DNA of 64,000 nucleotides from positions 248,001-312,000 of the forward strand of contig NZ_CP016753.1 in NCBI RefSeq assembly GCF_002240055.1, in the 5' to 3' direction. Below, one piece after another: positions 2,094-39,673 of the stretch (its first letter is position 1; each line of letters starts with the position of its first letter). Made by a program: the position numbers and the translations under genes. The notes beneath the pieces are model-generated. The model was not told the origin of the DNA, searched no databases, and saw only the letters and a program-made list of their open reading frames with translations. This DNA comes from Leptotrichia sp. oral taxon 498 (GTDB lineage: Bacteria; Fusobacteriota; Fusobacteriia; Fusobacteriales; Leptotrichiaceae).

Positions 2094-2113
2094 AAAAGTA
2101 AGGAGTGATAATT

Positions 2114-5403: not shown

Positions 5404-5565
5404 AAAATGATTCTTAATTATGAAGAAAAATAATTAAATGTTTAAATTTTAATAATTTTGAAATTACAAAAAATGAGGTAAAATATATTAAGAAACTGAA
5501 AATAAATAATAAATTAAAGTAAAATAAATTTGTTTGACAACTTTTTTAAAAGGAGTGAGATGGTT

Positions 5566-6462: not shown

Positions 6463-6577
6463 ATTGAAAAAATTTTTTAAAGTTATCAGACAGAACTAAT
6501 ATTATTTTTTTTAAAGGATCTTGAATAAATTTACCATTTTAAATAGAAAAAAATTTAAAAATGACAAGGAGTAAAAT

Positions 6578-14796: not shown

Positions 14797-14828
14797 TAAT
14801 GTTACTACCTTGAAAGGAAGGTGAGTTG

Positions 14829-16387
14829 ATGAAAAGGATAACCAAAATAGATGCCTCGGTCACTGCGGAAGTGAAAAAGACTAGAGCAGCGGCATACTGC
14901 AGAGTATCCACGGCCAGTGATGAACAGCTGATAAGCCTTGAGGCACAAAAGACAAATTATGAAAGCTATATCCGGTCAAATGACGATTGGGAGTATGCAG
15001 GCTTGTATTATGACGAAGGAATCACTGGTACCAAGGCAGAAGTCAGAGACGGGCTGCAGGCTCTTCTTAGGGACTGCGAAGATGGGAAGATTGACCTCAT
15101 TATTACAAAATCCATCAGCCGTTTTTCAAGAAATACTACAGACTGTTTGGAGATGGTCAGAAAGCTTGTGGAAATGGGAGTGTTCATATTTTTCGAGAAG
15201 GAGAATATCAACACGGGATCAATGGAAAGTGAATTAATGCTTTCCATTCTCAGCAGTCTTGCCGAAAGCGAATCGGTATCGATTTTGGAAAACTCCAAGT
15301 GGAGCATCCGAAGAAGATACCGGAACGGAACATTTATTATTTCCTATCCGCCTTATGGATACGCAAATATAGAGGGTGAGATGAGAATTGTTCCGGAAGA
15401 AGCAGAAGTGGTAAAACGAATATTTGCTGAATGCCTGGCAGGGACGGGAACCTACACCATAGCAAAGAGGCTGAATGAGAATCATATCCCAACTAAAAAG
15501 AACGGCAAGTGGCATGGCGGAACCGTAAACGGAATTCTGACAAATGAAAAGTATACCGGCGATGTTTTATTCCAAAAGACCTATACGGATGACGGCTTTA
15601 ACCGACACACGAATTATGGCGAGGTTGACCAGTTCTTTTGTGAAACTCATCATGAAGCCATTATCAGCCATGAGGATTTTGAAAGGTGCAGGAGGTACTT
15701 GCTCAAAGAGTTGCAGAAAAAGGCAACGGCATCAATATATCAAGGTATCAGAACCGTTATACATTTTCAGGAAAGATTATATGTGGAGAATGTGGTACGA
15801 CCTTTAAGCGAAGAACCCATTATAAGCCAAGCGGAGATTATATTGCCTGGACTTGCGGACAACATATCGAAAACAGGCATGCCTGCACAATGCTTTATGT
15901 TGAAGAATCGGCAATCAAAAGTGCCTTTACAACAATGATAAATAAGCTGGTGTTTGGTCATCAAAGAATGCTGAAGCCGATGCTTTCATCACTGAAAGGT
16001 ACGGACGACAGAGACAGACTGATACAAATTCAAAGAATCGAGCAGGCAATTGAAGACAGTGCTCTAAGAAAGCAGACCTTGGTAAGCCTTGCATCACAGG
16101 GAATTTTGGAGCCTGCTGTTTACACCGAAGAGTGTACGGCACTGGCGCTTCAGCAAGAACGGCTGTTGGCAGAGAAAAAGACTCTGGTATCCGATATTGG
16201 CGGAGACAGAGAGAAACTGCATGAACTGGAAAAGCTGATGAAGTTTACAGGAAAAGGACAGATGATGGAACAGTTTGATGATGAGACATTTAACAGTTTT
16301 GCAGAAAAAATAGTAATTGCAGACAGAGAGACAGCCGTTATTCATCTGAAATGCGGATTAAAACTGAAGGAAAGGCTGGTGAGATAA
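14829..16387 (+). pseudogene. Large serine recombinase, one frameshift
   Basis: The N-terminus has the resolvase catalytic fold with the nucleophile in [13 protein letters not shown] (about residue 25), LYYDEGITGT and the ISRFSRNT motif. A Recombinase domain (PPYGYANIEG... NGILTNEKYTGDVLFQKTY) follows. At about 15682-15684 one A is missing from a GAAAGG run: the frame reads F-E-R-C while relatives read F-E-K-V-Q. The second frame continues with the zinc ribbon (CGECGTTF...CGQH...C) and the coiled-coil C-terminus to 16387. GGAAGGTGAG precedes the ATG at 14829. Large serine recombinases integrate and excise mobile elements; this one is inactive unless the shift is an assembly error. Confidence 0.8.
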
Positions 16388-16819
16388 ATGAGACATATTC
16401 CATATGGGTACGATATCATAGATGGAAAGGCAGTTATCAATGAAGAAGCGGCTGAACAGGTCAGAACCTTTTTTCAGCATTATTTGAATGGAGTGGCACT
16501 TACCAAGGCGGCAGAACTTGTTGGGATGACGCTGTTTCATGGAAGTGCAGGCAGAATGCTTAGAAATAAGCACTACCTGGGCGATGATTATTATCCGCAG
16601 ATTATTGATAAGGAAACCTTTGATAAGGCAGAGAAACTCAGACAAGAGAAAGCTGCAGGACTTGGAAGAATCAGAGAACTAAAGACAGCAGAAGAGAAAA
16701 TGCCTGACAAGGCGTTTATATTCAGACCTGCTGAAACAAAATATTCTGATCCATTCAGACAGGCAGAATATGTGTATGGATTGATTGAAAGTGAGGCGCA
16801 GACAGATGGCACAAACTAG
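16388..16819 (+). CDS. Recombinase-domain accessory protein of a serine recombinase module
   Basis: The 143-residue product resembles only the middle Recombinase domain of large serine recombinases ([26 protein letters not shown]...[26 protein letters not shown]), with no catalytic resolvase domain. Such short proteins sit between two full serine recombinases in several Firmicutes mobile elements, as here. It starts directly at the stop of the first recombinase and overlaps the start of the third gene by 14 bases, so the three are translationally coupled. It probably helps DNA binding or directionality; this is inferred from position. Confidence 0.75.
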
Positions 16820-18360
16820 AACTGTTACAATGATTCCTGCAAGAAGACGAGTGGGAAATACGGTGCGAGAAGAGGAAAGACCAAAGCTTAGAGTTGCTGC
16901 TTACTGCCGTGTTTCTACGGACAGTGACGAGCAGGCTACAAGCTATGAAACACAGGTGGAGCATTACATCAGTTATATTAAGAAGAATCCCGAATGGGAA
17001 TTTGCGGGAATATTTTCTGATGACGGTATCAGCGGCATCTACACCAAGAAACGAGAAGGCTTCAATAAAATGATTGATGAGTGTATGGATGGAAAAATCG
17101 ATATGATCATCACAAAATCGATCAGCCGATTTGCAAGAAACACTCTGGACTGCCTTAAATTCATAAGACAGTTAAAGGAAAAGAACATTCCCGTATTTTT
17201 TGAGAAGGAAAATATCAATACGATGGATGCAAGGGAGAGGTACTGCTTACCATCATGGCTTCTCTGGCACAGCAGGAAAGCCAGAGCTTATCACAGAATG
17301 TGCAGTACCGATACCAGAACGGGCAGATGAGCATTAATCATAATCGATTCCTTGGTTTTACGAAAGATGAAGATGGGCATTTGATTGTAAAGCCGGATGA
17401 GGCGGAAGTGGTAAAAAGAATTTACAGATAGTATCTGGAAGGGGCAAGCCTCCAGCAGATAGCAAAGGGGCTGGAAACTGACGGCATTCTAACAGGAGCC
17501 GGCAAGAAAAAGTGGAGACCGGAAACCTTGCACAAGATTCTGCGAAACGAAAAATATATCGGAGATGCCCTTCTTCAGAAAACCTATACGGTGGATTTTT
17601 TGAATAAAAAGCGAGTTCAGAACAAAGGAATTGTGCCGCAGTACTATGTGGAAAACAGTCATGAAGCCATTATTCCAAGGGATATCTTCATGAGAGTGCA
17701 GGAAGAAATGGTACGAAGGGCAAACCTTCACAGTGGAGAAAAGCGAAAGAAGAGAGTGTACAGCAGCAAGTATGCACTTTCCAGCATCGTGTGCTGCTCC
17801 AAGTGCGGAGACATTTATCGCAGAATAACAGAGGAAAGCGTTCCACAGTGTGGAGATGCTGCACCAGAGTTGATTTTGGCCCCGGCAAGTGCGATGCACC
17901 AACTATCAGCGAAGCAGAACTCCAAGATGCAGCTGTCAAGGCAATCAATAAGGCACTTAGTGGCAGAGAAGATATGATGAAAGGTTTGCAGGAGAACATC
18001 GAGAAAATATTGTCTGAGGGTTCTGATACGGCAGTTTAGGAAATCGACAGTCGATTATTGGAACTGCAGAAGGAACTGCTCAAGAAAGCCAATGCAAGGC
18101 AGAACTACGATGCTCTTGCTGATGAGATTGAAGCCTTGCGAGAACAGAAACATACAGTTATGGTAGAAAGTGCAGAACGGGAAGGCATAAAGAAGCGAGT
18201 AGCTGAGATGCAACAGTTTCTTGCGGAACAGAAAACGGAAATCACGGAATATGATGAAAGTCTGGTCAGACAGCTAATCGAGAAGATAACCGTGTATGAG
18301 GATCAATTCGAGGTGATGTTCAAGTCCCATACGACTGTGGAGATAAAAAGAATATTTTGA
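16806..18360 (+). pseudogene. Second large serine recombinase, several disabling mutations
   Basis: The intact start ([15 protein letters not shown]) leads into [21 protein letters not shown] and [11 protein letters not shown], a full resolvase domain. Then: a frameshift near 17235 (one G lost in AAGGGAGAGG); an in-frame TAG at 17428-17430 inside VVKRIYR[15 protein letters not shown]; another frameshift near 17826 within the zinc ribbon ([12 protein letters not shown]); and a TAG at 18037-18039 before EIDSRLLELQKELL. The coiled-coil tail continues to 18360. The accumulated lesions show the gene is dead, so this module can no longer move the element by itself. Confidence 0.85.
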
Positions 18361-18554: not shown

Positions 18555-19709
18555 CTAAATTTGACGATTTATTTGACGGCTAATAAAATCAGAAAGCATA
18601 TTCATGTTTTTCTGCTTCAGCTCCATTGACGGGTGGACATATCGGTTTAATGTTATGTTTACAGATGCGTGTCCTAAAATTTCACTCAGACTCTTAATGT
18701 CAAATCCAAGTTCTATGCACCTCGTGGCAAATGTATGCCTGAGTGCATGGAAGTTCGCCGGGGCAATTCCTGTTTTCTTAATCATAGATTTGAACCTGTT
18801 TTGCATGGTTCGTGGCTCCACATATAGAGTTGTCTTTCCGGTAAGGAAATAGGTATTAGGTGCATTTTGGCGTTCCTGAAGCATAAGCAGGAGCTTAATG
18901 GGAACATCTCTAACGGAGTACGCACTCTTAGGCGCAGAGATGATGATTTCTGATTTATGATCCGAGTTGCTTTTCACTTGAATTCTCTGCATTGTTTTAT
19001 GAACGTGGATACAATTATCTCGAAAAGATATATCTTCCCATTTCAACGCACATACTTCTCCAACACGGAGCCCTGTATAAAGACTTAGAAATATCCCAAT
19101 ACCTGTGTTGCTTGATTCTTTTAACAAATATTCTGTTAACAAGGATTGTTCGGCTTGACTGAGTATCCTCATCTGCTTTTGTGGCTGCTTGACATTTAAG
19201 CCGTTGAAACTGATAAGTGTGCATTGTTTTGTCTCTGCTGTGAACTCAAATATATTTTTCATAACAGAAATAATGCTGTTAACGGTCTTAGGGGCAAGAC
19301 CAGCATTATTTCTTCCACTACTCGTCAGCAATTTCGATATGTAAGATTGGATATCTGTCCTTGCAATATTTGTAATATTTCTCTGTCCAAATTCCGGAAG
19401 CAGATGATTGTTAAGGATATTTATATATTTTGCAGTGCTGGATTCCTTCCACTGCGATTTATTTGCTTGTATCCATTCATCGGATGCTCTGGAAAATGAA
19501 CAAATTAATAACTCTGAAGCTATAACAGGTACTGCAGAGGTGTTTGATGCAAGGCGAGTCTTAGCGTCCGTTAGCTTAATTTTTACTTCCTTATATGAGC
19601 GAGCAAATACATATCCATATTTTGCTTTGCCATTGATTCGATCTCGAATATATCGTCCTTCCCATCTGCCGTCTTTTCGCTTGTAAATATTTTCGCCTTT
19701 TCTCGGCAT
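18555..19709 (-). CDS. Tyrosine recombinase / integrase
   Basis: The 384-residue protein has the Tn916/phage-type architecture: an N-terminal AP2-like arm-binding part (YKRKDGRWEGRYIRD), a SAM-like core-binding domain (residues 75-165) and the catalytic domain with TGLRVGEVCALKW (first Arg), HALRHTFATR (His/Arg), and LGHASVNITLNRYVH (His/Trp position and Tyr nucleophile). No catalytic residue is missing and the gene looks intact. It reads away from the cargo operon. It probably moves the accessory region or part of it; alternatively, because of the inverted repeats on both sides, it may act as an invertase. No excisionase gene is visible next to it. Confidence 0.9.
   Translation of the reverse strand: MPRKGENIYKRKDGRWEGRYIRDRINGKAKYGYVFARSYKEVKIKLTDAKTRLASNTSAVPVIASELLICSFSRASDEWIQANKSQWKESSTAKYINILNNHLLPEFGQRNITNIARTDIQSYISKLLTSSGRNNAGLAPKTVNSIISVMKNIFEFTAETKQCTLISFNGLNVKQPQKQMRILSQAEQSLLTEYLLKESSNTGIGIFLSLYTGLRVGEVCALKWEDISFRDNCIHVHKTMQRIQVKSNSDHKSEIIISAPKSAYSVRDVPIKLLLMLQERQNAPNTYFLTGKTTLYVEPRTMQNRFKSMIKKTGIAPANFHALRHTFATRCIELGFDIKSLSEILGHASVNITLNRYVHPSMELKQKNMNMLSDFISRQINRQI
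18573..18585 (+). repeat. 13-bp direct repeat (TTGACGGCTAATA), copy 1
   Basis: An identical 13-mer occurs at 19737-19749 just outside the integrase start; this copy is inside the last codons of the integrase. Arm-type integrase binding sites would have such a layout. Confidence 0.6.
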
Positions 19710-20343: not shown

Positions 20344-21966
20344 ATGTTTGAACTAATAGCAGCCATTATACTTATTTATCTTGCATACTTACTGATTGTA
20401 AAAGTGTTGATACCAGTTGGTGCTGTTGTAGGTGGAATCGCTTTGGTTATAGTTGCAGGAGTAGCTGTAATTGTTGGCTTTTTCACAGCATTTGCAAACT
20501 ATATTAAGGCTGTGCGAGAAAATATTAATTTTAGAAATTGGGAATGGGAAAAGGATGATGAACCGGCAAAACGCAGCTATTTTTTTGGACCTGGATATGC
20601 TCAATTAACAGGAACCATTAAAAAAGCTTTTGAACTAAATGCACTATCAGGAGAAAAAGTTAGTACAATTGCAAAAGGGTTTAAGGGCGATAGCGATGGA
20701 ATATGGGGAGGAATTAAATCAATATATGGTGTTATATATCTGATTATTGCTGATATATGTATTTATGTTATTGGTTCTTTATTATGTGCTGTATTCGGAA
20801 TTATTCATGGAGCTATTACATCGGTAATAATGATATTAACTTATATTATTTTTATAATCGTATGGATAATTGACAGATTGTATTTGCTTAAAAATGAGAT
20901 TAGATCAGACTGTCCAGTTTGTCATAGTAGATTCTTGATCCCTACATTCATGTGTCCTGAATGTGGAGCAATGCACAAGAAACTTGTTCCAGGACCATAT
21001 GGAATATGGAAGCACAAGTGTACTTGTGGACATAAAATTCCATCAACTTTTCTTAGTGGTAGATCAAAACTTGATGCGTATTGTCCAGATTGTGGATCTC
21101 CTTTAGTTGCGTCAGATGCAAGACAGCTTGTCTTTCAGTTGATTGGTGGAAGTAAATCAGGAAAAACAGTATTTCTGTCAGCGTATTTCCATGAATATTT
21201 AGAAAAATTAAGAAAGAATCGAAATTTAGAGATTGAAATTTCAGACCAGTATCAGCCATTTTTTGCTGAATTAGAAGAATGGTATAGCGGTGTCGAGTGT
21301 CCTGCTACAGCGCAGCTTAATTCGCAAATGTACCCGCTGCTAATTAATAGTTCATTGGGAATAAAGCGTCAGTTTTCTATTTATGATATTGCGGGAGAAA
21401 TGTTTGATGGATTTACGGCAGAAAGTGAAATCCTTCAGCAACAATTTCATTATTGCAATGGCCTTTTATTCTTAATTGATCCTTTCAGTAGTGGAAATCT
21501 TCGTGAGGATAGAATCAACTCTGGTGAAGACATGTCGGACTTTAGTGATATGCCGGTTGAGGATGTGGTAACGAATTTTATAAATTATCTTGTTACTATA
21601 GGACATAAGAAAGCAAATGCGAGATGTACAATACCTATGGCAGTACTAATAGCAAAGGCTGATGTGAGAGAAATTAAAAGGGTAATTGGCCCTGCTAAAA
21701 TTTCGAGTGTGTTCAAGAATAATCAAAATGGATATACAAGTTATGATGAGGCTCGTGATGGTGAATGCAGAAAGTTTTTGATGGATATCGGTTTGTCTGC
21801 AACAGTAGAAAATCTAGAGACGGAGTTTTCAAATTTGCATTATTTCCCTGTAAGTGCTATGGGACATGCACCAGATGGAAGTGAATATGAACCGTGGGGT
21901 GTCACAGATGCAATTGATTGGATGTTGCCGTTAGCAGATAAGGAGTTGGCGGATCTGATTATGTAA
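20344..21966 (+). CDS. Membrane-anchored zinc-ribbon GTPase (double-GTPase/DO-GTPase-like)
   Basis: The 540-residue protein has two N-terminal membrane helices (about 1-50) and two more (about 128-180), then three paired-cysteine zinc ribbons (CPVCHSRF..CPECG, CTCG, CPDCG). A TRAFAC-type GTPase domain follows: P-loop GGSKSGKT (about residue 267), switch-II-like DIAGE (about 350) and AKAD (about 435) in place of NKxD. This layout fits the bacterial GTPases paired with GAP1-type proteins in conflict systems; a second GTPase and a GAP1-like gene lie downstream. It is the first structural gene of the operon and likely places the complex at the membrane. Exact family naming is from memory of motifs. 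Confidence 0.75.
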   Translation: MFELIAAIILIYLAYLLIVKVLIPVGAVVGGIALVIVAGVAVIVGFFTAFANYIKAVRENINFRNWEWEKDDEPAKRSYFFGPGYAQLTGTIKKAFELNALSGEKVSTIAKGFKGDSDGIWGGIKSIYGVIYLIIADICIYVIGSLLCAVFGIIHGAITSVIMILTYIIFIIVWIIDRLYLLKNEIRSDCPVCHSRFLIPTFMCPECGAMHKKLVPGPYGIWKHKCTCGHKIPSTFLSGRSKLDAYCPDCGSPLVASDARQLVFQLIGGSKSGKTVFLSAYFHEYLEKLRKNRNLEIEISDQYQPFFAELEEWYSGVECPATAQLNSQMYPLLINSSLGIKRQFSIYDIAGEMFDGFTAESEILQQQFHYCNGLLFLIDPFSSGNLREDRINSGEDMSDFSDMPVEDVVTNFINYLVTIGHKKANARCTIPMAVLIAKADVREIKRVIGPAKISSVFKNNQNGYTSYDEARDGECRKFLMDIGLSATVENLETEFSNLHYFPVSAMGHAPDGSEYEPWGVTDAIDWMLPLADKELADLIM

Positions 21967-22000: not shown

Positions 22001-23137
22001 ATGGCATTAGATAATAAGCTAAAGTCAGAAATGACAGGTAGTGGAACTTGTTCGAGTCAGAACAGTACAGCACCGGTTCCAAATTTCCAAAATACTCAAT
22101 CTGAATCTGAACCATCTGTACAGGGTACACGGATAGATGATGGGAAAGTTTCTCCGAAGGCGGTGCCGAAACCACAGCCAACAGTTCATCAGGAGTCTCA
22201 TGACTCCACGGAAATGCTTTTAATATCTATTGAAAAGCAACTAAAGTCATTAAATCAAAGTGTGGCAGATTTAGAGCAAGAAGTTAGTTCTTGTAAGAAT
22301 CCGGATTATAGAGTTGTATTTTCTAAAATTGATTCCGCAAGAAGTAGCATTGAGAAAATGATTTTGGGGATTAGTGAAAATCAAAATACTTCAAATGATA
22401 GCTGTTTAGTAGAAAAAATTGCAAAATTTGAAGAAATACTCATTGCGGTAACTGAAAAGCAAGATAAAAATGATAGACAGCTAGCACAGACATTAAGGGA
22501 AAATGCGAACTTCCAAATCCAGGTACGCCAAGGAATGCAAAAGGATCTCGATGTACTGAAAGAACAACAAAGCGGAGAACAATTTAATCCAATTTTAAAA
22601 GAAATTGCTTCAATGTATGTTGAGTATCAAACTTTACTTGAGGATGAAACTATCTCAGATTTATCTAAGAAAAATCTCAAAGCATTGTTTGAACAGATGG
22701 AAGATTTACTCATAGATTATGATGCAGAAATAACTCGTAGTGAGGTGGGAGACACTCGACAAACAAGAAGCACAAAGATTATTGAGAAGGTTTCTACTGC
22801 TGATCAGGAGAAGCACAATACTATAGCAACAAGCAGAAAACCGGGCGTTTTGAGAGGCAGAACAGTTTTATATCCTGAATTTGTAGATGTCTACGTATAT
22901 GATCCTACTATTATTCAAGAGGAAATATTTGATCAAGCTTCAACAGATCTGGATAATAATCTGGAAGAGGGGCTAGCAGGGAATATCATTACGGAAACTG
23001 TTGTTAGTGAAGCCCCATTAGAAAGTGCTAGTGATTGCGATGCTGTTGATGTAAATGAAGAGGCCACTTTAGAGAATTGGATAGATAAAGAAATTCTTGA
23101 GGAAGACGAAGAAAAACACATAGATAAGGAGAATTGA
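22001..23137 (+). CDS. Coiled-coil protein with GrpE-like C-terminal part
   Basis: The N-terminal 75 residues are disordered (Ser/Thr/Pro/Gln-rich), followed by a long coiled coil (about 75-235). Residues about 240-300 then resemble the GrpE head: a short helix pair, DTRQTRSTKIIEKVSTADQ and KPGVLRGRTVLYPEFVDVYV, matching the GrpE pattern 'G..L..RVLRPA.V.V'. An acidic tail follows. GrpE is the nucleotide-exchange factor of Hsp70, and two Hsp70 genes follow immediately (this stop and the next start are 1 base apart). I infer a dedicated exchange factor for the island's Hsp70s. The resemblance is by eye only. Confidence 0.6.
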   Translation: MALDNKLKSEMTGSGTCSSQNSTAPVPNFQNTQSESEPSVQGTRIDDGKVSPKAVPKPQPTVHQESHDSTEMLLISIEKQLKSLNQSVADLEQEVSSCKNPDYRVVFSKIDSARSSIEKMILGISENQNTSNDSCLVEKIAKFEEILIAVTEKQDKNDRQLAQTLRENANFQIQVRQGMQKDLDVLKEQQSGEQFNPILKEIASMYVEYQTLLEDETISDLSKKNLKALFEQMEDLLIDYDAEITRSEVGDTRQTRSTKIIEKVSTADQEKHNTIATSRKPGVLRGRTVLYPEFVDVYVYDPTIIQEEIFDQASTDLDNNLEEGLAGNIITETVVSEAPLESASDCDAVDVNEEATLENWIDKEILEEDEEKHIDKEN

Positions 23138-23138
23138 T

Positions 23139-24755
23139 ATGAGCACATATGGTATTGATTTAGGAACAACTTACTCTTGTATTGCAACTTTAGATCGTAA
23201 TGGTAATCCTGAAGTTGTTAGAAATCAAGCGGATGCAAGTGATACTTTGGCATCAGCAGTATTTTTTGAAAGTGCAGACAATGTTGTTATTGGTAATAGT
23301 GCCAAAGATATGGTTGAAACAGATGGAGAAAGAGTTGTCCAGTTTGTAAAACGCGAAATTGGAAAACCTAATGCACGCACTTATGAATTTGATGGAAAAA
23401 CATACACTCCAGTCGAGATTAGTGCACTTATTCTTGGCCGTTTGAAGCAGATGGTTGAAGAGCAGGGTGGTTCCGTAGATGATGTTGTTATTACCTGTCC
23501 TGCGTATTTTGGTCTTGAAGAGCGTAATGCAACAAAAGAGGCAGGCAAACTTGCGGGTATGAATGTTCGAAATTTAATTAACGAGCCTACAGCAGCGGCA
23601 CTTAGCTATTGTGCTCGTCAATTCCAAGAAGAAAAAACTATTTTAGTTTATGACCTTGGTGGTGGTACATTCGATGTTACTATTGTAAAAATGTCACTAG
23701 TAATGAATAGCGATGGAAACGAGGTTCAGATGGTTACTGTTATTACAACAGGTGGCAATGATGAACTTGGTGGTAAAGATTGGGATGATAAGCTTTTCGA
23801 TCACATTCTTCAGGCTTGCTGTGACGAAAATGGCCTCACACCAGACGAAATTGATGTTGAAACTCGTCAGCTGATTAGAAGTCGTGTAGAAATTACCAAG
23901 AAGAAGCTTAGTAATGCTGAGACAGCAAAAGTAAAGATAAATGTCAATGGTGCGATGACCACAATTAATATTACCCGTGAAGAGTTTGAAAATCTTACTT
24001 CGGATAAAGTGGCTCAAACTATGACATACGTTGAAGACACTCTGCAGAAAGCTGGAAATATTGAAATCGATACGGTGTTACTTGTGGGAGGTTCTACATT
24101 TATGCCGATGATTCGTAATGCAGTAGAAGCAAGATTTCCTGGAAAAGTGCAGATTGAGGATCCGGATAGAGCAGTTGCAAAGGGAGCTGCAATTTGTGCA
24201 AGTATGTTAGTTGAAGAAGCAGAAGCACCTTCGCCGGAACCTGTTGACCCGGAACCTCAGCCATCGCACGGAAGTGGTCTTTCTAAGAGATTTGTTGTTG
24301 TAGATCAGACTCCTCGTTCTTTCGGTCCTGGTGTATTAAATGAAGTTGGTGATTATATTATTGATAATATAATTAAAATGGGAGAAATTATACCAGCAAC
24401 AGCTGTGAAAACTTACTACACAGCGGCTGATAATATGGAGAAGATTGTTCTTCGTGCTTTTGAGAATATGTCACAGGACGAAATCCTTACACCTTGTGTG
24501 AATAACATGGGTGAACCACAGCAGACCGATCCGGCACATAACGTAAAGCTTCTGGGCGAACTTGAGATGCTTTTACCTCCTAACACAAAAAAGGGATCTC
24601 CTATAGAAGTTACTTTCCAGATAGATGCAGTTGGTGTATATGTAAAGGCTGTAAATCTTTCTACCGGTGAAATTGTGGAGACTACACTTAGAATGGAATC
24701 TGATGTTGATGCAGAAACAAGTGCAGTTAATCAGGTGAGTATTTCTGCCGAATAA
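23139..24755 (+). CDS. Hsp70/DnaK-family protein of the GTPase island
   Basis: The 538-residue protein carries GIDLGTTYSCIA, TCPAYFGLEERNATKEAG, INEPTAAALSY, YDLGGGTFDVTIV and LLVGGSTFMP, so the ATPase domain is complete. A Pro/Glu/Ser linker (PSPEPVDPEPQPS, about residue 365) replaces the usual hydrophobic interdomain linker, and the remaining about 155 residues form a beta-rich region without the helical lid. It is therefore not a standard DnaK. It follows the GrpE-like gene with overlapping control signals (AAGGAG inside the upstream coding end) and is followed by a hairpin terminator that may set its level above the next genes. Confidence 0.9.
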   Translation: MSTYGIDLGTTYSCIATLDRNGNPEVVRNQADASDTLASAVFFESADNVVIGNSAKDMVETDGERVVQFVKREIGKPNARTYEFDGKTYTPVEISALILGRLKQMVEEQGGSVDDVVITCPAYFGLEERNATKEAGKLAGMNVRNLINEPTAAALSYCARQFQEEKTILVYDLGGGTFDVTIVKMSLVMNSDGNEVQMVTVITTGGNDELGGKDWDDKLFDHILQACCDENGLTPDEIDVETRQLIRSRVEITKKKLSNAETAKVKINVNGAMTTINITREEFENLTSDKVAQTMTYVEDTLQKAGNIEIDTVLLVGGSTFMPMIRNAVEARFPGKVQIEDPDRAVAKGAAICASMLVEEAEAPSPEPVDPEPQPSHGSGLSKRFVVVDQTPRSFGPGVLNEVGDYIIDNIIKMGEIIPATAVKTYYTAADNMEKIVLRAFENMSQDEILTPCVNNMGEPQQTDPAHNVKLLGELEMLLPPNTKKGSPIEVTFQIDAVGVYVKAVNLSTGEIVETTLRMESDVDAETSAVNQVSISAE

Positions 24756-24884: not shown

Positions 24885-27140
24885 ATGGGAATAAAAGTTG
24901 GAATTGATTTAGGCACTACATTCTCAGCTGTTGCGATGATGGATGAGAAAAAAGGACAACCTGTTATTGTTTCTAATACATTGGGAGAAAGAATCACGCC
25001 ATCTGTTATTCAGTTTACAGAGGACGATGAGATAATTGTAGGTGCTGAGGCAAAGGAAGCTTTTGAAGCTGGCGAATCCGGATGTGCCTCTGTGTTTAAG
25101 AGAAGTATGGGAAGTAATGATACATACTGTTCTTTTAATGGGAAACAATATACAGCAGAAGATTTATCTGCAATTTTACTTCGTTATCTTAAAGAAGAGG
25201 CGGAAGCAGTAACGCATCAAAAGATTGATGAAGCTGTTGTGACCGTGCCTGCGTATTTTTATCACAAGGAGCGTCAAGCAACCATGAATGCTGCCAAAAA
25301 AGCAGGCTTAAATATTCGCCAGATTATTAACGAGCCAACAGCAGCAGCTATGAACTATGGTGTTAATCATTGGCGTGAAAATGCTCGTGTTTTGGTATAT
25401 GACCTTGGTGGAGGAACATTTGATGTAACTCTTGTACAAATGAAGAAAAACAATCAGATGGAATCTTTACAGACTACAGGAGATCATACACTTGGTGGAA
25501 AAGATTGGGACGCTCGTTTAAGTGCAGAAATTGAAAGCAAAATTGAGAGCGAAACAGGCTTCTATGTCTCAGAGTATCCAGAGATACATCAAACTGTAAT
25601 TCAAAATGCGGAAAATATAAAAAAACAGCTGACAACACGAAATGTTGCAAATGTCAGACTTAATCTTCCAAACTATGGTTGGTATTCAACAACTATATCA
25701 CTTGAAGAATTTGAACAGAGTACAACAGATTTGATTGAAAGAACTGGAACACTTTGTGAAAGTCTTCTAAGAGGATTAGGAATCGGATGGAGAGACATAA
25801 CAGATATTCTCTTGGTTGGTGGTTCTACAAGAATGCGTCAAGTGTCGTCGTATTTGAAAAGAATTAGCGGTCATACACCACTTGCCCAGGTAAATCCAGA
25901 TGAAGCGGTTGCATTAGGAGCTGCTATTCAAGTACATCTTCCATTACCAGAATACAGCGTAATCACTATGGCACCACCTAAACAAGAAAACACCAGCAAT
26001 TCAGAGTTCTTTAAGTTTAAAAGACAGGAGTTGAAAACTGCGTCGCAACAAGCACAGAAGTATACTTTGCCAGGCACTGTTGGAAAGGAAACTGCATTAA
26101 ATAATGCATTGTGTATGAGTCATGTTGATGTAGTTGCACATGCAATGGGGGTCATTGCGGTAAATGCGGAGGGAACGCATTATATCAATAAAACAATCGT
26201 GCCGGCCAATCAGAAAATACCTGTCAAATGTGCAGAAGCATTTCACTACTACACGTCAGCACGTGGAGATAATGAAGTAGAAATTTATGTTTTACAAGGA
26301 ACAAAAGCACCGTTAGACTGTGAAATTATTGGAAAATATGTTGTTTCTGGAATTAGCCATGATAGAACTGACAATCCTACAACAATAAAAATCCAGTATA
26401 GCTATGACATAAATGGCATGGTTCATGTTCAGGCTCGTCAGGGAAGTGGTACAACAGATTTGCCTATTAGAGAAGAGGCTGTTCCAGCTGACATGAGTAA
26501 ATTTGGAAGACCTATTGATCCACAAGAAATGAAGCCAATCGCAGAAGCCTTGTCAGTTGTAATGGCAGTGGATGTTTCGGGAAGTATGTCTGGAAAACCT
26601 ATAGAAGATGCTCGTAATGCAATGTGCCATTTTGTTGATAATTTTGAGGATTATCCAGGAGATGTTGAAATTGGTGTTATTGCAGTATCTGATTCATCAA
26701 AAGTAGTTCAGCCTTTAACTAGCAATTTACACAAGTGCAAAACATCTATCAGATCAATTACTGAGTGCATGACAGGTGTATGTAATGCAGGGCATCCATT
26801 TAATGACATTCAATCTATGCTTGGAAGCTTAGATGGGAAACGTCTAGGAATTGTCCTTGCAGATGGAATGTGGGAGAATCAGTCATTAGCAGTAAGTGAA
26901 GCGAAAAGTTGTCATCGTATGGGAATTGACATTACGGGAATCGGTTTTGGTAGTGCTGATGAAAAATTTTTACGTGATATAAGTTCAGGGGATATTGATT
27001 CCATGCTTGTTGACCAGAGCGAATTGACTCAAAGCTTTGGAAAGATTGCACAGGAAATTGGTGGAAGTAATACAGGAAAGCATGGGCGTACAGGTGCAGA
27101 AACATCAGTTGCTACATGGTTAGCAATTAATGAACAATAG
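24885..27140 (+). CDS. Hsp70-von Willebrand factor A fusion protein
   Basis: Residues 1-370 form an Hsp70 ATPase domain (GIDLGTTFSAVA, VPAYFYHKERQAT, INEPTAAAMNYG, YDLGGGTFDVTLV, LLVGGSTRMRQV). A beta substrate-binding-like region runs to about residue 540 (SYDINGMVHVQARQGSG). A vWA domain starts at about residue 560 with an intact MIDAS motif, AVDVSGSMSG. The fusion of a chaperone ATPase to a metal-dependent protein-binding domain is unusual. vWA domains in bacterial NTPase systems commonly dock partner proteins; here the partner may be the J-like/FN3 protein encoded next. AGGAGG lies before the ATG. Confidence 0.9.
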   Translation: MGIKVGIDLGTTFSAVAMMDEKKGQPVIVSNTLGERITPSVIQFTEDDEIIVGAEAKEAFEAGESGCASVFKRSMGSNDTYCSFNGKQYTAEDLSAILLRYLKEEAEAVTHQKIDEAVVTVPAYFYHKERQATMNAAKKAGLNIRQIINEPTAAAMNYGVNHWRENARVLVYDLGGGTFDVTLVQMKKNNQMESLQTTGDHTLGGKDWDARLSAEIESKIESETGFYVSEYPEIHQTVIQNAENIKKQLTTRNVANVRLNLPNYGWYSTTISLEEFEQSTTDLIERTGTLCESLLRGLGIGWRDITDILLVGGSTRMRQVSSYLKRISGHTPLAQVNPDEAVALGAAIQVHLPLPEYSVITMAPPKQENTSNSEFFKFKRQELKTASQQAQKYTLPGTVGKETALNNALCMSHVDVVAHAMGVIAVNAEGTHYINKTIVPANQKIPVKCAEAFHYYTSARGDNEVEIYVLQGTKAPLDCEIIGKYVVSGISHDRTDNPTTIKIQYSYDINGMVHVQARQGSGTTDLPIREEAVPADMSKFGRPIDPQEMKPIAEALSVVMAVDVSGSMSGKPIEDARNAMCHFVDNFEDYPGDVEIGVIAVSDSSKVVQPLTSNLHKCKTSIRSITECMTGVCNAGHPFNDIQSMLGSLDGKRLGIVLADGMWENQSLAVSEAKSCHRMGIDITGIGFGSADEKFLRDISSGDIDSMLVDQSELTQSFGKIAQEIGGSNTGKHGRTGAETSVATWLAINEQ

Positions 27141-27157: not shown

Positions 27158-30100
27158 ATGGACAGACGAAATTATTTTGAGATTCTTGGACTTGACTTTG
27201 ATCCGCCTGAAAAAAACCAGCGACGTATAGATAAAGCAATTGCTGAGTGGAAAAAGCGTACAGAAGATATGCTTGCAAATGAAACAATTGCAACACGTAG
27301 AGCTGTACTTTCAGACGAATTGTCTCTTCATGATAATATGGTTGAGACTTTACGTGAGAACAAGACCAGAAATATAGAGGCGCGAGCTCTTAAAGAGATT
27401 CGCACTCAACAATTAGAAAAGTTGATTGATATTATGCTGATCGGACAATCGGGAACTCCTGAAGTGACAAATGCACAGATAAGAAATGTGCATTTAAAAT
27501 TAAAATTGTCCCCTAAAACAATAGAAGATACTTACGTAAAAAAAGGATTCGTTATACAGCAAGTAACTAAAACTGTCAATCTTAATGATGCGTTTTTGAC
27601 CACTGTGGTAGCAGGAAATATCAGTAGTAAGATTTCACAGCTTCAAACAATGGCAATACCTAAATATCCGTGGACACCGAATGTTTCAGATTTATATGAT
27701 TTAGCATGTTATTTTGGTGGGGGAAGTGATAGCGATACTGGAAGTTATCACAAAAAAAGAACAACAGAATTATATAGCATTATGGAATCTTGGGCAGCAC
27801 AATTTGCAAGTGATATGAGTACACAAGGTCATTTGTTGGCAGATTTGTTCACAGCTGGAACTACTCAAGTTTTCAACACTGAGGCAAATCGAAAAAAATA
27901 CGATCAGTCTCTAGAACGAGAAAAGATGAAAGAATTCTTTTCATTATTAAAAACTGCGCCAGAAGATTTCAAAAAAGATCGTTACTTTGCGGACAGTTGC
28001 ATTAGAACAATACAAAAGAGTTTTCCGGATTATAATTTATCACTGGCATTATATAATCAGGAAGCCGGACTAATGCAGGATCCATACGAACCGTTAGAAG
28101 CATTAATTCACTTGACGTGTAATTCGTGTAAAGCTCCAGCAGAGTTTAGAACTAGAGAGGACGCTGAACGAGGAAAATGTGCTGTCTGTGGGGCGTCACT
28201 TTATGTCGAGTGTCCAAAATGTCATAAGAAAGTACCAGCGACAGCGGATCGATGTTCTTGTGGATTCCTGATTTCAGAGATGCAATTCTTTGATGATTAT
28301 ATTAAAGCTGCTGAATTTGCTCTTAAAGAAATGGATTTAGGTAAAGCTAGTAAGCAGTTTGCAAATGCAGAAAATGCTTTTCCGGGACATCCAAAACTTT
28401 TAACCTTGTCGCAAAGAATAAAAGCAGAGCGAGACAAGTATGATAAGCCACTCAATGAATTAAAGGCTTTAATAGCTGCGCGTATGTTTAGTAAGGCACA
28501 AACATTATTGGGAGCATTAAGTGCCTCAATGCCTCAATTAAAACTAGATAGTCAGAAGAAAGTGATAGATGAAAAAATGGCAGAAGTTAAACGCTTGATG
28601 CCATCTGGATCACTATCACCTGTTGACAAAGCAAATAGATGCGTAGAAATCCTTCAAATTGTGGAAGATTATCAGCCAGCAATAGATGTATTGATTGCTT
28701 CGAGACCAAGGAAACCTTTAAACTTAAATGCAGCAGTAACGGGAACATCTTCATTGATATGTACTTTATCGTGGAATGCAACTGGTGATAAGGGTATTAA
28801 ATATCAAGTTGTAAGAAAGAAGAATGGTGTTCCGCAAAGACAGGCAGATGGTGAAGTTTTGGCTGCGGATATTGGGGATCTTAGTTATAAGGATACTTCT
28901 TTGCAACCAGGTATTAGCTATGGGTATGCAGTTTTTGCATGCAGAAGAAATGTTTTTTCAGATCCATCTGTATGTGAGATTGCAAACTTTAGTGAATTAG
29001 ATACAAAACATCTTCGAACTTCGGCTGAGAATGGTATTTGTCGTTTTAGTTGGGTTTTACCTCCAAATTGCATTGGAGTCCGTATTCTTAGAAGTACGAA
29101 TGCGATTCCATCAGAAAATGTTACTTCTGGAAGTACTGTTGTAGCTGCTAAGGCATCAGCAAACTTTGATGACTCTGGAGTTTCAAATAACAATACATAT
29201 GGTTATCGTTTACAATGCGTATATCTATATGAAAATAGCTTTAGGTATAGTAAGGGTGTTACTGTCATGCTAACGCCAGAACAACCACCTGTAGCATTAA
29301 GAAATATTACATCACGTATCGAAGGCCGATTAGTTACTATTCGCTGGAATTCACCAGATAATGCACAGAGATCTGTTCTTATCAGGGAAGTTTCTTCAAA
29401 TGCAGCGGCTAATCTTATTGGTCAGGTAATTCCTGCGTCAGATATTAACTCAATGCTTGGAAATGGAAGAAATTATGCGAATACAATGAGTACAACATTG
29501 CAAGCACAGTTTGAAATTCCGCCAAACATGTCGTGTGCATTGGCAATAATATGTGTTGCAGGCTCTAAGGGAATTATTTCAGATATTGTTCGTGTTTCTA
29601 GTGTTGAAAAATGTGAAATTGATAAACGCCAGACGAGAATAGAAGGAAACAGATTAAGAATTGTCCTTGCAAATAAACTTAAAAATTTGGAAAGAATTCA
29701 CTACATTGTCGCAAAGAAGACTGGTTCTACAGTTCCATGGGCAACGATTGAAGATGCGAAACATAAATCGCTATCTATTGTATCATTGAGAGACTATGAA
29801 CGAGATGGGATGATTCTTGTAGAAATGCTTCCTAAAACTGATCTTTATATATCAGTGATTGGACAGTATAAAATGCCAGATGGCAGTACTATTTACTCGG
29901 AACCTTCGAAATTGAGATTAAGTAATAAACCCAAGGAAAAAATAACATATCGATTTAGCTGGAGAACAGGAGGTTTCTTCAGTCGAGCAAAAGCAAAAAA
30001 TTGCAAATTAGTGGTTTATTCGAATGCAGAAGAAACTCCGGAAATATATGTGGTATATAAATCGGACGGGCATATTCCTATGAAATTGCAAGATCCAAAA

Positions 30101-30289
30101 GCAGTTATTATCCATACTATTCCGGAATCGGATAGTGGATTTAATAATGGAGAATACGTATATCAGTTTTCAGATAGTACATGGAATGGAATTTCATCTG
30201 CTACACCAATGAGACTTTTTATTCAAGATGATGATATGACAGAATTTGAAATTGTACCGAGCGATATTGAAAGCTGTAAGGTACCATAA
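27158..30289 (+). CDS. J-like domain, zinc ribbons and FN3-like repeats protein
   Basis: The first 70 residues (MDRRNYFEILGLDFDPPEKN...AIAEWKKR) look like a J-type helical hairpin but no HPD tripeptide is present. The middle (about residues 320-375) has paired zinc ribbons (CNSCKAP..CAVCGAS..CPKCHKK..CSCGF). A helical stretch follows, then at least three beta-sandwich FN3-like repeats (for example LSWNATGDKGIKYQVVRKK and IRWNSPDNAQRSVLIREV). I prefer ATG 27158, with GAGAGG upstream, over the GTG overlapping the previous stop. It probably works as the co-chaperone-like scaffold of the Hsp70-vWA fusion; this is inference. Confidence 0.75.
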   Translation: MDRRNYFEILGLDFDPPEKNQRRIDKAIAEWKKRTEDMLANETIATRRAVLSDELSLHDNMVETLRENKTRNIEARALKEIRTQQLEKLIDIMLIGQSGTPEVTNAQIRNVHLKLKLSPKTIEDTYVKKGFVIQQVTKTVNLNDAFLTTVVAGNISSKISQLQTMAIPKYPWTPNVSDLYDLACYFGGGSDSDTGSYHKKRTTELYSIMESWAAQFASDMSTQGHLLADLFTAGTTQVFNTEANRKKYDQSLEREKMKEFFSLLKTAPEDFKKDRYFADSCIRTIQKSFPDYNLSLALYNQEAGLMQDPYEPLEALIHLTCNSCKAPAEFRTREDAERGKCAVCGASLYVECPKCHKKVPATADRCSCGFLISEMQFFDDYIKAAEFALKEMDLGKASKQFANAENAFPGHPKLLTLSQRIKAERDKYDKPLNELKALIAARMFSKAQTLLGALSASMPQLKLDSQKKVIDEKMAEVKRLMPSGSLSPVDKANRCVEILQIVEDYQPAIDVLIASRPRKPLNLNAAVTGTSSLICTLSWNATGDKGIKYQVVRKKNGVPQRQADGEVLAADIGDLSYKDTSLQPGISYGYAVFACRRNVFSDPSVCEIANFSELDTKHLRTSAENGICRFSWVLPPNCIGVRILRSTNAIPSENVTSGSTVVAAKASANFDDSGVSNNNTYGYRLQCVYLYENSFRYSKGVTVMLTPEQPPVALRNITSRIEGRLVTIRWNSPDNAQRSVLIREVSSNAAANLIGQVIPASDINSMLGNGRNYANTMSTTLQAQFEIPPNMSCALAIICVAGSKGIISDIVRVSSVEKCEIDKRQTRIEGNRLRIVLANKLKNLERIHYIVAKKTGSTVPWATIEDAKHKSLSIVSLRDYERDGMILVEMLPKTDLYISVIGQYKMPDGSTIYSEPSKLRLSNKPKEKITYRFSWRTGGFFSRAKAKNCKLVVYSNAEETPEIYVVYKSDGHIPMKLQDPKAVIIHTIPESDSGFNNGEYVYQFSDSTWNGISSATPMRLFIQDDDMTEFEIVPSDIESCKVP

Positions 30290-30302: not shown

Positions 30303-31412
30303 ATGGCTTTATTACACTCAGATGTTCTTTGTCCATATTGCTTACAAGAACTCAGAAGTAGAGATTTGAAAACATTTTGCAATATTTGTGGACATTCAGT
30401 GACACCAACAAGAACAGAGTCGTTATTAAAAAAAATACCAAAATGTAAAGAACCAGGATGTAGAGGATTTGGAAGTGTAAAACAGTGTTCTTATTGTGAT
30501 AGTAATTTGCCTTCAGATATTTTGGATTATGAGAAATATCTGCGTTTCAGTATTTTAGGAATTACGGGTTCTGGAAAAACAAACTTTTTGACAACTATGC
30601 TTCATGAATTGCGTCATACAAGTGGCTCACCATGGGTTCTTTCACCGATGGATGCCAATACAACTGCTATTTTCCAGCAAAATGACAGAGCAATTTATAG
30701 TATGAGACAGCCGGTTGCTGCAACAGCCGCAGGTATGACACCGCCACCCCAGTTGTGGAAAATTAAAGATAAAAATCGAATGACTAATACAGTTATCCCA
30801 TCATATTCTATGACTATTTTTGATGGAGCAGGTGAAGATTGCGAACACATTGTTCCAGTTATCAGCAGATATATTAAGGAATCTAAGGTGCTGGTTATTT
30901 TGATTGACCCTCTTGCGTTACATGGAGTCGCATCTAGTATTCCGCAAAATATTCTGAATTGGTCTACTTCTGCTTCTCATGATACGGATGCGTCTGCAGA
31001 TATGGTAGATGGATTAGCTACATATATTAGACAGAACTGTGGAATTGCACCTGGAAAACTGATAAATAAAGATGTTGCTGTTGTGTTTACAAAAATTGAT
31101 GCTGTAAAAGATACCTTTGGTTCAGCCACAGTTATGCAGCCTAGTCCACATTTGGCACGTAAAGGTTTTGTTAAAGCAGATGCAGATGCAGTTGATGCAG
31201 AGATTAGGGATTGGCTAGAGAGTCAGGGGGAAAATACATTCTTGGATGCGATTGACACAAACTTTAAAAAAGGCGGTGTTAGATTCTTTGGTGTATCAAG
31301 TTTTGGACAGCCACCTACGGGTAGCTATCAGTTAGGAAAAGTAATGCCTCACAGAGTTTTAGATCCTCTAATTTGGATGCTCTCAAAGGAAGGTATTGTA
31401 CCCACGCTTTGA
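30303..31412 (+). CDS. Zinc-ribbon GTPase (double-GTPase-like), soluble
   Basis: Two N-terminal zinc ribbons (CPYCLQE..CNICG and CKEPGC..CSYC) are followed by a GTPase domain with P-loop GITGSGKT (about residue 87), switch-II-like DGAGE (about 178) and TKID (about 265), which reads as the guanine-specificity motif. No membrane helices. I start at ATG 30303 because GGAGG lies 8 bases before it. It is a paralogue in design of the membrane GTPase at 20.3 kb, so the operon encodes one anchored and one soluble GTPase, directly followed by the GAP1-like gene. Confidence 0.8.
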   Translation: MALLHSDVLCPYCLQELRSRDLKTFCNICGHSVTPTRTESLLKKIPKCKEPGCRGFGSVKQCSYCDSNLPSDILDYEKYLRFSILGITGSGKTNFLTTMLHELRHTSGSPWVLSPMDANTTAIFQQNDRAIYSMRQPVAATAAGMTPPPQLWKIKDKNRMTNTVIPSYSMTIFDGAGEDCEHIVPVISRYIKESKVLVILIDPLALHGVASSIPQNILNWSTSASHDTDASADMVDGLATYIRQNCGIAPGKLINKDVAVVFTKIDAVKDTFGSATVMQPSPHLARKGFVKADADAVDAEIRDWLESQGENTFLDAIDTNFKKGGVRFFGVSSFGQPPTGSYQLGKVMPHRVLDPLIWMLSKEGIVPTL

Positions 31413-31449: not shown

Positions 31450-34176
31450 ATGCTAAATCAACTTATTTACACACGGTGTATGCCACATCGTGAGTTGAAA
31501 AATAAAGGGCAAGTGGTTCGTGCAGATGGATTTGGTGTATTTTCTATGAGTCAAGAGTTGATTACCAATCCACCTGTACCTAACTATGATTTTCTTCAGA
31601 CTCGTTTAGCTGTACAGAATGGAGCAAAAGAAACATCGGCTACTGGTTTATTTAATTCATATGATTACACTGCAATTTCTTCCAAGGTATATGCTTTGTC
31701 ATTTGAAGTTGCAAGACCACATTGTAAAGAAGTAAGAAAAAATGGACAGGGCCATAGAACGGGAACATACATTAAGCAGTGCCTTGTTGGAAATCCAGGC
31801 GATTATCCTTTCAAATGGTTTGGTGCATCTGTGTGGGATGCACATTTGAAGTCTGAAAATGACTATTATCTTGATGAAAATCCTAGTGCTGAACCTGTAT
31901 GGCTTAATACGGTGCAGGATATACCAAATGGTTCATACGTTTCTATTGAGAGCGTTAAAAAGTTTGTAAATGCAGGTCGTGCAGAAGCTGTTAAAGCTGG
32001 AATTTGGTTTCTGTTACACGAATATGCAAAACCTGAAAATGAGAGAAAAGTTCTTTTGATTAAGGATATTCCTGAAAATGTGGAATTATGGATTGCAGCC
32101 ATTGAATATGCATTCAGTGCAGAAATGGCACAAAAAATTACTTTCTCAACGAATAAAACAAAACTTGGTACACAGATTGATAATATTTTGTTTTTCTATA
32201 CAGATGAATCTGGAAAGTTTTATCCGATGCGTAACAATAGTATGACGCAGATTAGACATCCGTACAATATGATTGTTGGATATCATCCTAGGGATAATTT
32301 CTGCGCTTCCGTCAAGCAGATGCCGACAAGTAATTTTGTAATGATTGATGGCACTAATAATATGGTATCTTTTGCAACAGACGAAAGCATAAAATCAGCA
32401 TACTACTCTGCGGCTGTTCAGTATGATGCAGATATTATTGATTTTACAAGCGTTGTTTTGCCTAGTTTACCTATTGATATGATAACGGATAAAATTCCGG
32501 AATTGTATGATGCATATAAGTACCTGTTGGATTCCAATCACCGAGTGGAAAAATGGACATACAGAGAAGCAATTGCTGAATTACAGTCTATTACTCAGTA
32601 TGGTATTTCTAAAAATGACGTATTGAATAAGTATATCTTTGATGAGGGGATGCGTGGGTATCAGCGTTTTGCAACAGAAGATGAAAAAAACAATTTTAAA
32701 CTTCTTAAGATTTTCTGGAACATTGCTAAAGTAACAAAACGCACAGGAGAAGTTACAGGATGTTTAGCTGATCTTCTGAGTACAGGAATGATGAACTTAA
32801 AAGTATCCGGAAATACTTTGACAGGTACATGGAATGCAATAAAAGCAGGTGAAGTTCAGAGCATTATTCGTCCTGCATTACAAGATTTGTTCAATGATAG
32901 TGAGTTGACAAGCTATAGTAGTCAGTTTGAAAATGCCCCTGCTTCTGTTGTTAGCACAGTGATGGAAATGTATTTTGATATGCTCTCGCTCGAAAGGAAC
33001 GGTATTAAGTCTATTTTAGAAAGTCAAGCAAAATATCAGTTTGTTTGTCATGCTTTGACTGCATTGATTGATAATAGAAATGCATTACATGCTGTGTTAA
33101 ACGGAATTAGTATTTCAGATGATGTTATAAATGCGGTCGCTTTGTCAGTTTCTGAACATCTTGAAGAATATAAACCGGGAAAAACCGAGGCATGGTGGGA
33201 TTCTATTATTGATCTTTCCGGTGGAAATGTCATGGAATTGTGTAGGACACTTTGTAAGTCTACTCAAACTAATATTGACATGATTGAACATTTACTAGCG
33301 AATACAATTTTAAAAGCAGGAAAATGTGATCGAGATATTTATCGTGCATTTGAGGATTCCATAAAGCAGCTTGGCAAGAGCAAAAATACAGGTATTGCAT
33401 TCTTTAATGCTTGGATTAAAGTTGAAAATTCTTCACACCTTAATAATATCATTCGGAATATTAGAGGGAATAGATTGTCCTCTTCCGCAGAAAAAGAATT
33501 ATTCCACCTTGTTGATAAACAGGTTCCATATGAATCTACGTCAGGAAAAATTTCTATTATATTTAGAGAAATTAAGGAATGGGCAAATGATATTGGGGAG
33601 ATGTCTCAAAGTGCGGCACTTTATGATTTGCGTAAAAATATGGAACGTGAGCGCAAAGCAGAAAAAGTTTTATCAACAATGTATGAATTTTCTGATTTGA
33701 AATTAGAGATACCAGATAACTATTTAAGGAGTCAATATTTTGAAAACTTGGCTCAAACTGCTGCAGATTTTTGCGATCCAGAAGTTCACATGGCTTTCCT
33801 GCATCTTTTTGATATACAAGATATCGGAATAAAGCAGGAATATATTAAGGCTTATGTTGATGAAGTGCTTAATGGTTCAAAAGGAAAACAGTTGGCTTAT
33901 TCAATGCTTAGCTTATGTGAGGCATTCTATTACGAATATAAGATTCCGGGGAAAAAAGCAGTTCAGGTAAAAGAGTCTGCAGATATGCTAAAGGCTTACT
34001 TTGTAAAAACGTTACCAAATCATTACAAACCTAATCTTCCGGATCAGGTTGCAAAAGCTAATTATGATGAGAATCAAGTGAAGAAAATGCTTATAACTAT
34101 GCTTCAGGATGCTGCTAAAAAAGCTCCAAGGAGTGGATTGAGAAGTATCTTGGGTGGATTATTTGGAAGAAAGTAA
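31450..34176 (+). CDS. GTPase-associated protein 1 (GAP1)-like protein
   Basis: The 908-residue protein opens with QLIYTRCMPHRELKNKGQVV, which fits the start of the GAP1-N domain family, continues through an N-terminal alpha/beta region (to about residue 310, including a FSTNKTKLGTQIDNILFF segment) and ends in about 550 residues of helical repeat-like sequence (GAP1-M/C-type). These proteins are encoded next to zinc-ribbon GTPases in bacterial conflict systems and are thought to regulate or couple them; no enzymatic motif is visible. The assignment rests on the N-terminal motif and on the neighbouring GTPase, not on a search. Confidence 0.65.
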   Translation: MLNQLIYTRCMPHRELKNKGQVVRADGFGVFSMSQELITNPPVPNYDFLQTRLAVQNGAKETSATGLFNSYDYTAISSKVYALSFEVARPHCKEVRKNGQGHRTGTYIKQCLVGNPGDYPFKWFGASVWDAHLKSENDYYLDENPSAEPVWLNTVQDIPNGSYVSIESVKKFVNAGRAEAVKAGIWFLLHEYAKPENERKVLLIKDIPENVELWIAAIEYAFSAEMAQKITFSTNKTKLGTQIDNILFFYTDESGKFYPMRNNSMTQIRHPYNMIVGYHPRDNFCASVKQMPTSNFVMIDGTNNMVSFATDESIKSAYYSAAVQYDADIIDFTSVVLPSLPIDMITDKIPELYDAYKYLLDSNHRVEKWTYREAIAELQSITQYGISKNDVLNKYIFDEGMRGYQRFATEDEKNNFKLLKIFWNIAKVTKRTGEVTGCLADLLSTGMMNLKVSGNTLTGTWNAIKAGEVQSIIRPALQDLFNDSELTSYSSQFENAPASVVSTVMEMYFDMLSLERNGIKSILESQAKYQFVCHALTALIDNRNALHAVLNGISISDDVINAVALSVSEHLEEYKPGKTEAWWDSIIDLSGGNVMELCRTLCKSTQTNIDMIEHLLANTILKAGKCDRDIYRAFEDSIKQLGKSKNTGIAFFNAWIKVENSSHLNNIIRNIRGNRLSSSAEKELFHLVDKQVPYESTSGKISIIFREIKEWANDIGEMSQSAALYDLRKNMERERKAEKVLSTMYEFSDLKLEIPDNYLRSQYFENLAQTAADFCDPEVHMAFLHLFDIQDIGIKQEYIKAYVDEVLNGSKGKQLAYSMLSLCEAFYYEYKIPGKKAVQVKESADMLKAYFVKTLPNHYKPNLPDQVAKANYDENQVKKMLITMLQDAAKKAPRSGLRSILGGLFGRK

Positions 34177-34507: not shown

Positions 34508-34536
34508 ATGTTTCGATAATAGGAAGGAGAATTGAT

Positions 34537-34797: not shown

Positions 34798-34819
34798 TAA
34801 TAAAGGATGGACACATTTT

Positions 34820-39246: not shown

Positions 39247-39247
39247 A

Positions 39248-39658: not shown

Positions 39659-39673
39659 GAGGTGATGTGCGGT

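Follow-up and report, generated by a model that had tools for sequence, protein, structure and literature searches.

Does a gene block that encodes its own Hsp70 proteins also bring its own nucleotide exchange factor, and would its chaperone set then be independent of the host? Reviews hold that eubacteria have a single exchange factor for Hsp70, namely GrpE (PMC4753570). A precedent for a second GrpE is Myxococcus xanthus, for which two GrpE proteins, one of them GrpS, are described in the accessible part of the source (PMC10313047). The question arises for a long coiled-coil protein encoded in a 64,000-nucleotide stretch of the genome of Leptotrichia sp. oral taxon 498 (the window), for which an original prediction had proposed a GrpE layout and a role as exchange factor that would free the chaperone set from the host. 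Here, we computed the fold, homology, gene linkage and interface changes of this protein and its partners.

The GrpE-like gene and its parts

The open reading frame at 22001–23137 (+ strand) is a genuine gene with its own Shine-Dalgarno sequence (AAGGAG) and a product of 378 aa. It is not a chance reading frame, because it has a relative with 71% identity over residues 1–307 on an Aerococcaceae contig (L002), the one close relative found in a genome scan, and relatives at ~50% identity in ~60 genomes belonging to a single class. When 380 genomes from one bacterial class were searched with a profile, 69 gave matches, most with E < 1e-40; some of the weakest are ordinary GrpE, as in genome G724, whose match is part of a heat-shock operon alongside DnaK and J-domain genes. 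No relative turned up in collections of plasmids, phages and viruses, and the gene is therefore not phage- or plasmid-linked in those collections.

As predicted, the gene stops one base ahead of an Hsp70 start, with TGA at 23135–23137 and the ATG of the Hsp70 at 23139. The Shine-Dalgarno sequence of this Hsp70 (AAGGAG) sits within the 3' end of the GrpE-like gene, an arrangement in the sequence that suggests translational coupling of the two genes. The protein has the following parts:

22001–23137, +: divergent GrpE, 378 aa, with a disordered N-terminus (~residues 1–70), extra N-terminal helices, GrpE core and acidic tail
22400–22642, +: long GrpE stalk helix, residues 134–214 (65–145 in model numbering), from the AlphaFold2 model
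22658–22717, +: short helix of the GrpE helix bundle, residues 220–239, from the AlphaFold2 model
22724–22900, +: predicted beta head, residues 242–300, including KPGVLRGRTVLYPEFVDVYV at 280–299; equivalents of Val190 and Val192 kept
22913–23134, +: acidic tail of 74 aa at the C-terminus, which canonical GrpE and most relatives lack

The proposed GrpE layout was right as to the fold, described below, and wrong in taking KPGVLRGRTVLYPEFVDVYV for the C-terminus, because a tail of ~74 residues (25 D/E, 3 K/R) comes after it.

Predicted fold and descent from GrpE

Is the protein a GrpE? Searches of the window protein itself against Pfam (E up to 1), NCBIfam and PADLOC gave no GrpE match. We modelled residues 70–312 with AlphaFold2, using an alignment of relatives only, without canonical GrpE. 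The model (mean pLDDT 88) contains a long helix (65–145), a short helix (151–170) and six strands (173–231, all in model numbering), and two additional N-terminal helices precede this GrpE core. The top 12 Foldseek matches in the PDB were GrpE without exception (12/12), bacterial as well as human mitochondrial; every match with E < 0.03 was GrpE, and no other fold appeared below E 1. VIA-align gave a Z-score of 12.6 over 158/158 residues of 1DKG_A, the best unrelated fold reaching 5.6. Structure prediction, named beforehand as the test that could overturn the assignment, thus returned the GrpE helices and beta head in AlphaFold2, Foldseek and VIA-align.

A search of the family HMM against the PDB ranked GrpE 4ANI first (E 1.9e-6, nearly full length). 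Aligned with hhalign to canonical GrpE, the window clade alone gave a weak E of 0.04, collinear from end to end, and reversed and column-shuffled controls were worse (0.15–0.81); with distant relatives added, E fell to 7e-6. Relatives also pass or come near the Pfam GrpE cut-off of 25.8 bits (PF01025), with 42 bits at locus L007, 28 bits at L006 and 30.1 bits for a 54.7%-identical relative in genome G605. Descent of the GrpE-like protein from GrpE is well supported, and the window protein is a divergent GrpE, its fold being predicted by the model and its sequence tie running through relatives.

With canonical GrpE (PF01025; 1DKG, 4ANI) it has in common the long stalk helix, the short helix, the six-strand beta head, a disordered N-terminus, the Val-x-Val core of the head and an adjoining Hsp70 gene. 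It differs in the extra N-terminal helices, the 74-aa acidic tail, the loss of Gly122 and of the FDP-H stretch and the change of Arg186 to Tyr; moreover, the island gene is a second copy in addition to the housekeeping gene, and its partner Hsp70 lacks the GrpE signature. The disordered N-terminal tails of E. coli GrpE bind the Hsp70 substrate site (PMC12915176), and by analogy the long N-terminus of the GrpE-like protein could have a similar role.

Linkage to Hsp70 and the surrounding operon

An Hsp70 gene lies directly 3' of the GrpE-like gene on the same strand in 39 of 41 loci, at a gap of at most 243 bases and mostly at most 50; one of the two remaining loci reaches the end of its contig. 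At three loci (L038, L040 and L045) the GrpE-like/Hsp70 pair stands with no other operon part nearby. In the window two Hsp70 genes adjoin the GrpE-like gene (Pfam HSP70 1e-84 and 4e-101). That the GrpE-like protein is dedicated to the adjacent Hsp70 is well supported. The neighbouring features are:

18555–19709, −: tyrosine integrase next to the block (Pfam PF00589, 9e-27)
20344–21966, +: DO-GTPase A, with zinc ribbons and with TM segments at the N-terminus (Pfam PF19975, 2e-7)
23139–24755, +: Hsp70, 538 aa, NBD and SBD-beta without full lid; GrpE-signature loop deleted, Arg167 changed to Asn
24885–27140, +: Hsp70–vWA fusion, 751 aa; GrpE-signature loop deleted, Arg167 changed to Gln
27158–30289, +: J-like/zinc-ribbon/FN3 protein; frame opens at GTG 27140, weak Pfam FN3 match
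30303–31412, +: DO-GTPase B with zinc ribbons; weak Pfam PF19975 match, frame opens at 30246, likely start 30303
31450–34176, +: GAP1-like protein, diverged (GAP1-M 20.1 bits, cut-off 24)
34247–35194, +: three small acidic proteins with a common KYGYDEMSDEEK-type motif
35216–38689, +: HerA/FtsK-type ATPase with serine-rich insert (Pfam DUF87, 2e-11)
38695–39246, +: DNA/RNA non-specific endonuclease domain protein, probable effector (Pfam PF13930, 1e-35), conserved in L074
39188–39658, +: YezG-like immunity protein (Pfam PF04634, 1e-8)
39662–40774, +: transglutaminase-like protein at the distal end of the shared block (Pfam PF01841, 5e-5), also in L074

The PF19975 match of the window DO-GTPase (30.8 bits) is over the cut-off of 27, and syntenic homologs of DO-GTPase B exceed or come close to the cut-off of the DO-GTPase2 model. 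Loci L043 and L044 have the order of the window (DO-GTPase, GrpE-like, Hsp70, Hsp70–vWA, FN3 protein, DO-GTPase, GAP1); there, the positional homologs of the GAP1-like protein pass the GAP1-N2 and GAP1-M cut-offs, and the DO-GTPase2 model is also over its cut-off. The Aerococcaceae contigs (L002/L074) share the entire block, from the first GTPase through the transglutaminase-like gene, at ~78–82% DNA identity over ~20.3 to 41.8 kb of the window, and integrase and serine-recombinase genes lie upstream of it in both the window and the Aerococcaceae contig. Among the block genes compared, the GrpE-like gene (71%) and the immunity gene (76%) are the least conserved, the others reaching mostly 80–94%.

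Several further observations concern the block and its surroundings. The window's serine-recombinase genes (14826–18360) look broken into several frames, the Aerococcaceae copies (L002:2939–6471) being intact. All three small acidic proteins carry a YGYDEMSDEEK motif, as does the Aerococcaceae copy, and belong to no family. The long insert of the HerA-type ATPase is rich in Ser and Gly, and the protein also matches the NCBIfam 'serine-rich protein' NF033849. The endonuclease and YezG-like immunity genes overlap (38695–39658) at the end of the operon, with an Aerococcaceae copy at L074:8803–9764. Outside the shared block, 42712–45150 encodes a protein that by eye looks Radical-SAM-like (CxxxCxxC, Cys-rich C-terminus), with a frame of 279 aa after it, and host proteins built from DKNNVYY-type motif repeats lie at 5530–9781 and 53405–54757.

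Is this arrangement new? In outline it is not, the Hsp70–GrpE arrangement being known from Kaur et al. 2020, the accessible part of which (PMC7159879) is the basis of the following comparison. Among the DO-GTPase/GAP1 systems described there, HSP70 and GrpE genes occur in ~14% of the GAP1-N2 neighbourhoods; a second HSP70 is present in some of these, and the FN3 protein bears a DnaJ or TPR domain. The window has in common with this theme two DO-GTPases, of which one has TM segments, a GAP1-like protein, GrpE, an Hsp70, a second Hsp70 and an FN3 protein with a J-like domain. It differs in its second Hsp70, a vWA fusion that retains an SBD-like part, and it adds the HerA-type ATPase, an Endonuclea_NS_2 nuclease, the YezG immunity protein and the transglutaminase-like protein. 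The operon is a diverged member of the DO-GTPase/GAP1-N2 HSP70–GrpE theme. GrpS of Myxococcus xanthus is likewise a second GrpE, a likeness drawn by description; no DO-GTPase operon is reported for it in the accessible part of the source (PMC10313047).

Changed contacts on the GrpE, Hsp70 and J sides

Which contacts are available to the pair? In DnaK, residues 290–295 form the GrpE signature, whose loss, along with that of cleft salt bridges, marks GrpE-independent Hsp70s; loss of this loop accompanies GrpE independence in HscA and HscC, and Arg167 of DnaK touches the Asp of the J-domain HPD (PMC8215388). We aligned the operon Hsp70s with 15 canonical DnaKs, mostly encoded in the same genomes, and added DnaK, HscA and HscC of E. 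coli. The GrpE-signature loop is absent from every operon Hsp70 and present in 15/15 canonical DnaKs. Position 167 is N, Q, S, A, T or E in the operon proteins, never R, while R167 is kept in all canonical DnaKs and in HscA and HscC. K70, E171 and T199, the catalytic residues, are kept in every operon Hsp70, as is the lower of the cleft salt bridges (K55–E267); the upper bridge R56–E264 is lost in every one, and by analogy the island Hsp70s may release ADP faster unaided. With HscA and HscC they thus share the missing loop and the loss of cleft salt bridges; however, Arg167 is retained in HscA and HscC, which have no GrpE, whereas the island Hsp70s have lost Arg167 and have a linked GrpE.

On the GrpE side, G122, V190 and V192 are residues for DnaK contact and head stability, and G122D (the grpE280 mutation) impairs binding to DnaK (PMC6987454). 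Gly122 is invariant in 16/16 canonical GrpEs and absent from 37/37 divergent ones; in the window protein its equivalent is Asn, in the helix region upstream of the beta head. The divergent proteins keep the equivalents of Val190 and Val192 in nearly all cases and conserve Gly177; in the window protein, Arg186 is replaced by Tyr and the FDP-H stretch is lost.

On the J side, the N-terminal region of the FN3 partner (residues 1–79, possibly repeated at 174–252) placed J-domains on top in the second-look aligner, at Z-scores of 5.7–8.7 that fall within the range where this aligner cautions on helical models. Foldseek alone gave no significant match and Pfam no convincing DnaJ (best E 0.19, one member). 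We assign this region a J-like fold from its model with moderate confidence. No HPD motif is present in it, in the window protein or in any relative examined, and for this reason we dropped the idea that a host-independent set would require a standard J-domain of its own. The FN3 and GrpE-like proteins co-occur (59 genomes shared of 61/64), in closely related genomes whose counts are not independent.

The paired interface changes are absent from the description in the accessible part of Kaur et al. 2020 (PMC7159879), and the rewiring of both partners' contact points appears to be unreported so far.

Host chaperones

Does the island replace the host machinery? A canonical GrpE exists besides the divergent one in 16/16 genomes tested. 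In the window genome, a single canonical GrpE and DnaK lie at ~193 kb of the contig, and the host DnaK carries the canonical GrpE site.

The window also encodes a host-like Hsp70 without GrpE-signature loop and with Arg167 present (3589–5403), adjoined by a J-like protein in which HPE takes the place of HPD (2105–3424); this pair (2105–5403) resembles the HscC/DjlC type and is separate from the island. Elsewhere, two clusters (L080:5278–11069 and L081:8492–14065) encode consecutively a protein-kinase-like protein, vWA, a PP2C-like protein, a GrpE-domain protein (Pfam GrpE 44.8 and 38.9 bits) and Hsp70, in genomes that also carry the GrpE-like/Hsp70 pair.

Discussion

We propose, with a probability of roughly 0.6, that the GrpE-like protein is a dedicated exchange factor for the neighbouring Hsp70 in a private Hsp70 cycle of a mobile system. 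It would dimerise via its long helix and press its beta head on the Hsp70 nucleotide-binding domain, leading to ADP release. The cycle would comprise two Hsp70s (one with vWA), the J-like/FN3 protein, two membrane-associated DO-GTPases and GAP1, and the GrpE-like protein would set how long a sensed protein or an effector stays bound to the Hsp70s; the nuclease gene downstream possibly encodes that protein. We regard exchange as the most likely function, because the entire head and core are kept and the lower, ADP-slowing salt bridge remains. Against it stand the lost signature loop, Gly122 and upper bridge, and the weak hhalign result of the window clade (E 0.04). The absence of the loop bears on the mode of action, not on descent: with Gly122 and the loop lost, the contact would be changed or the protein would be a non-exchanging scaffold, and for an Hsp70 without this loop either a different contact or a lost exchange has to be considered.

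As a scaffold of GrpE fold, the protein would use stalk and head to bring the Hsp70s to the DO-GTPases or GAP1, the Hsp70s exchanging unaided. The loss of loop and upper bridge in the Hsp70s and of Gly122 in their partner would suit this role, as would the extra N-terminal helices and acidic tail of the window protein. However, the beta head is fully kept with Val190/Val192 and Gly177 conserved, the K55–E267 bridge persists in the partner Hsp70s, so that exchange may still need help, and the GrpE-like/Hsp70 pair persists without the GTPases; we consider a pure scaffold less likely than an exchange factor, yet a serious rival. Alternatively, the protein could target the host DnaK, as competitor or modulator, rather than the island Hsp70s. 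A host DnaK with a canonical GrpE site is indeed present, but the residues used by canonical GrpE (Gly122, Arg186, FDP motif) are altered and linkage to a rewired Hsp70 is near-universal, which makes this reading very improbable. An unrelated coiled-coil protein of chance GrpE likeness, for which speak the missing Pfam match of the window protein and the readiness of coiled coils to match each other, is already contradicted by the beta-head match, along with the fold searches and the Pfam matches of relatives, and is hardly credible.

If the GrpE-like protein is a dedicated exchange factor, is its set separate from that of the host? The set is probably insulated from host DnaK–DnaJ–GrpE, because the classical contacts of both partners are changed (Gly122 with the signature loop; HPD with Arg167). 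The host-independent exchange factor originally envisaged fits these paired changes and the constant Hsp70 linkage. Going further, we see a somewhat less than even chance that a mobile conflict island holds a naturally orthogonal Hsp70 machine, in which GrpE acts on signature-less Hsp70s, an HPD-less J-like partner meets Hsp70s that have lost Arg167, both co-chaperone contacts were replaced together and the host chaperones are neither used nor disturbed. We suspect that the mobile gene cluster is part of a bacterial conflict system; the nuclease–immunity pair is compatible with such a role but no proof of it.

In summary, a second, remodelled GrpE sits beside Hsp70s without the loop that marks dependence on GrpE, and the contact on the J side is changed too. 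If the pair works, it would be a natural test of how contacts between Hsp70 and its co-chaperones can be rewired, and it would give a lever on the proposed role of DO-GTPase/GAP1 systems in conflict, with assembly through Hsp70.
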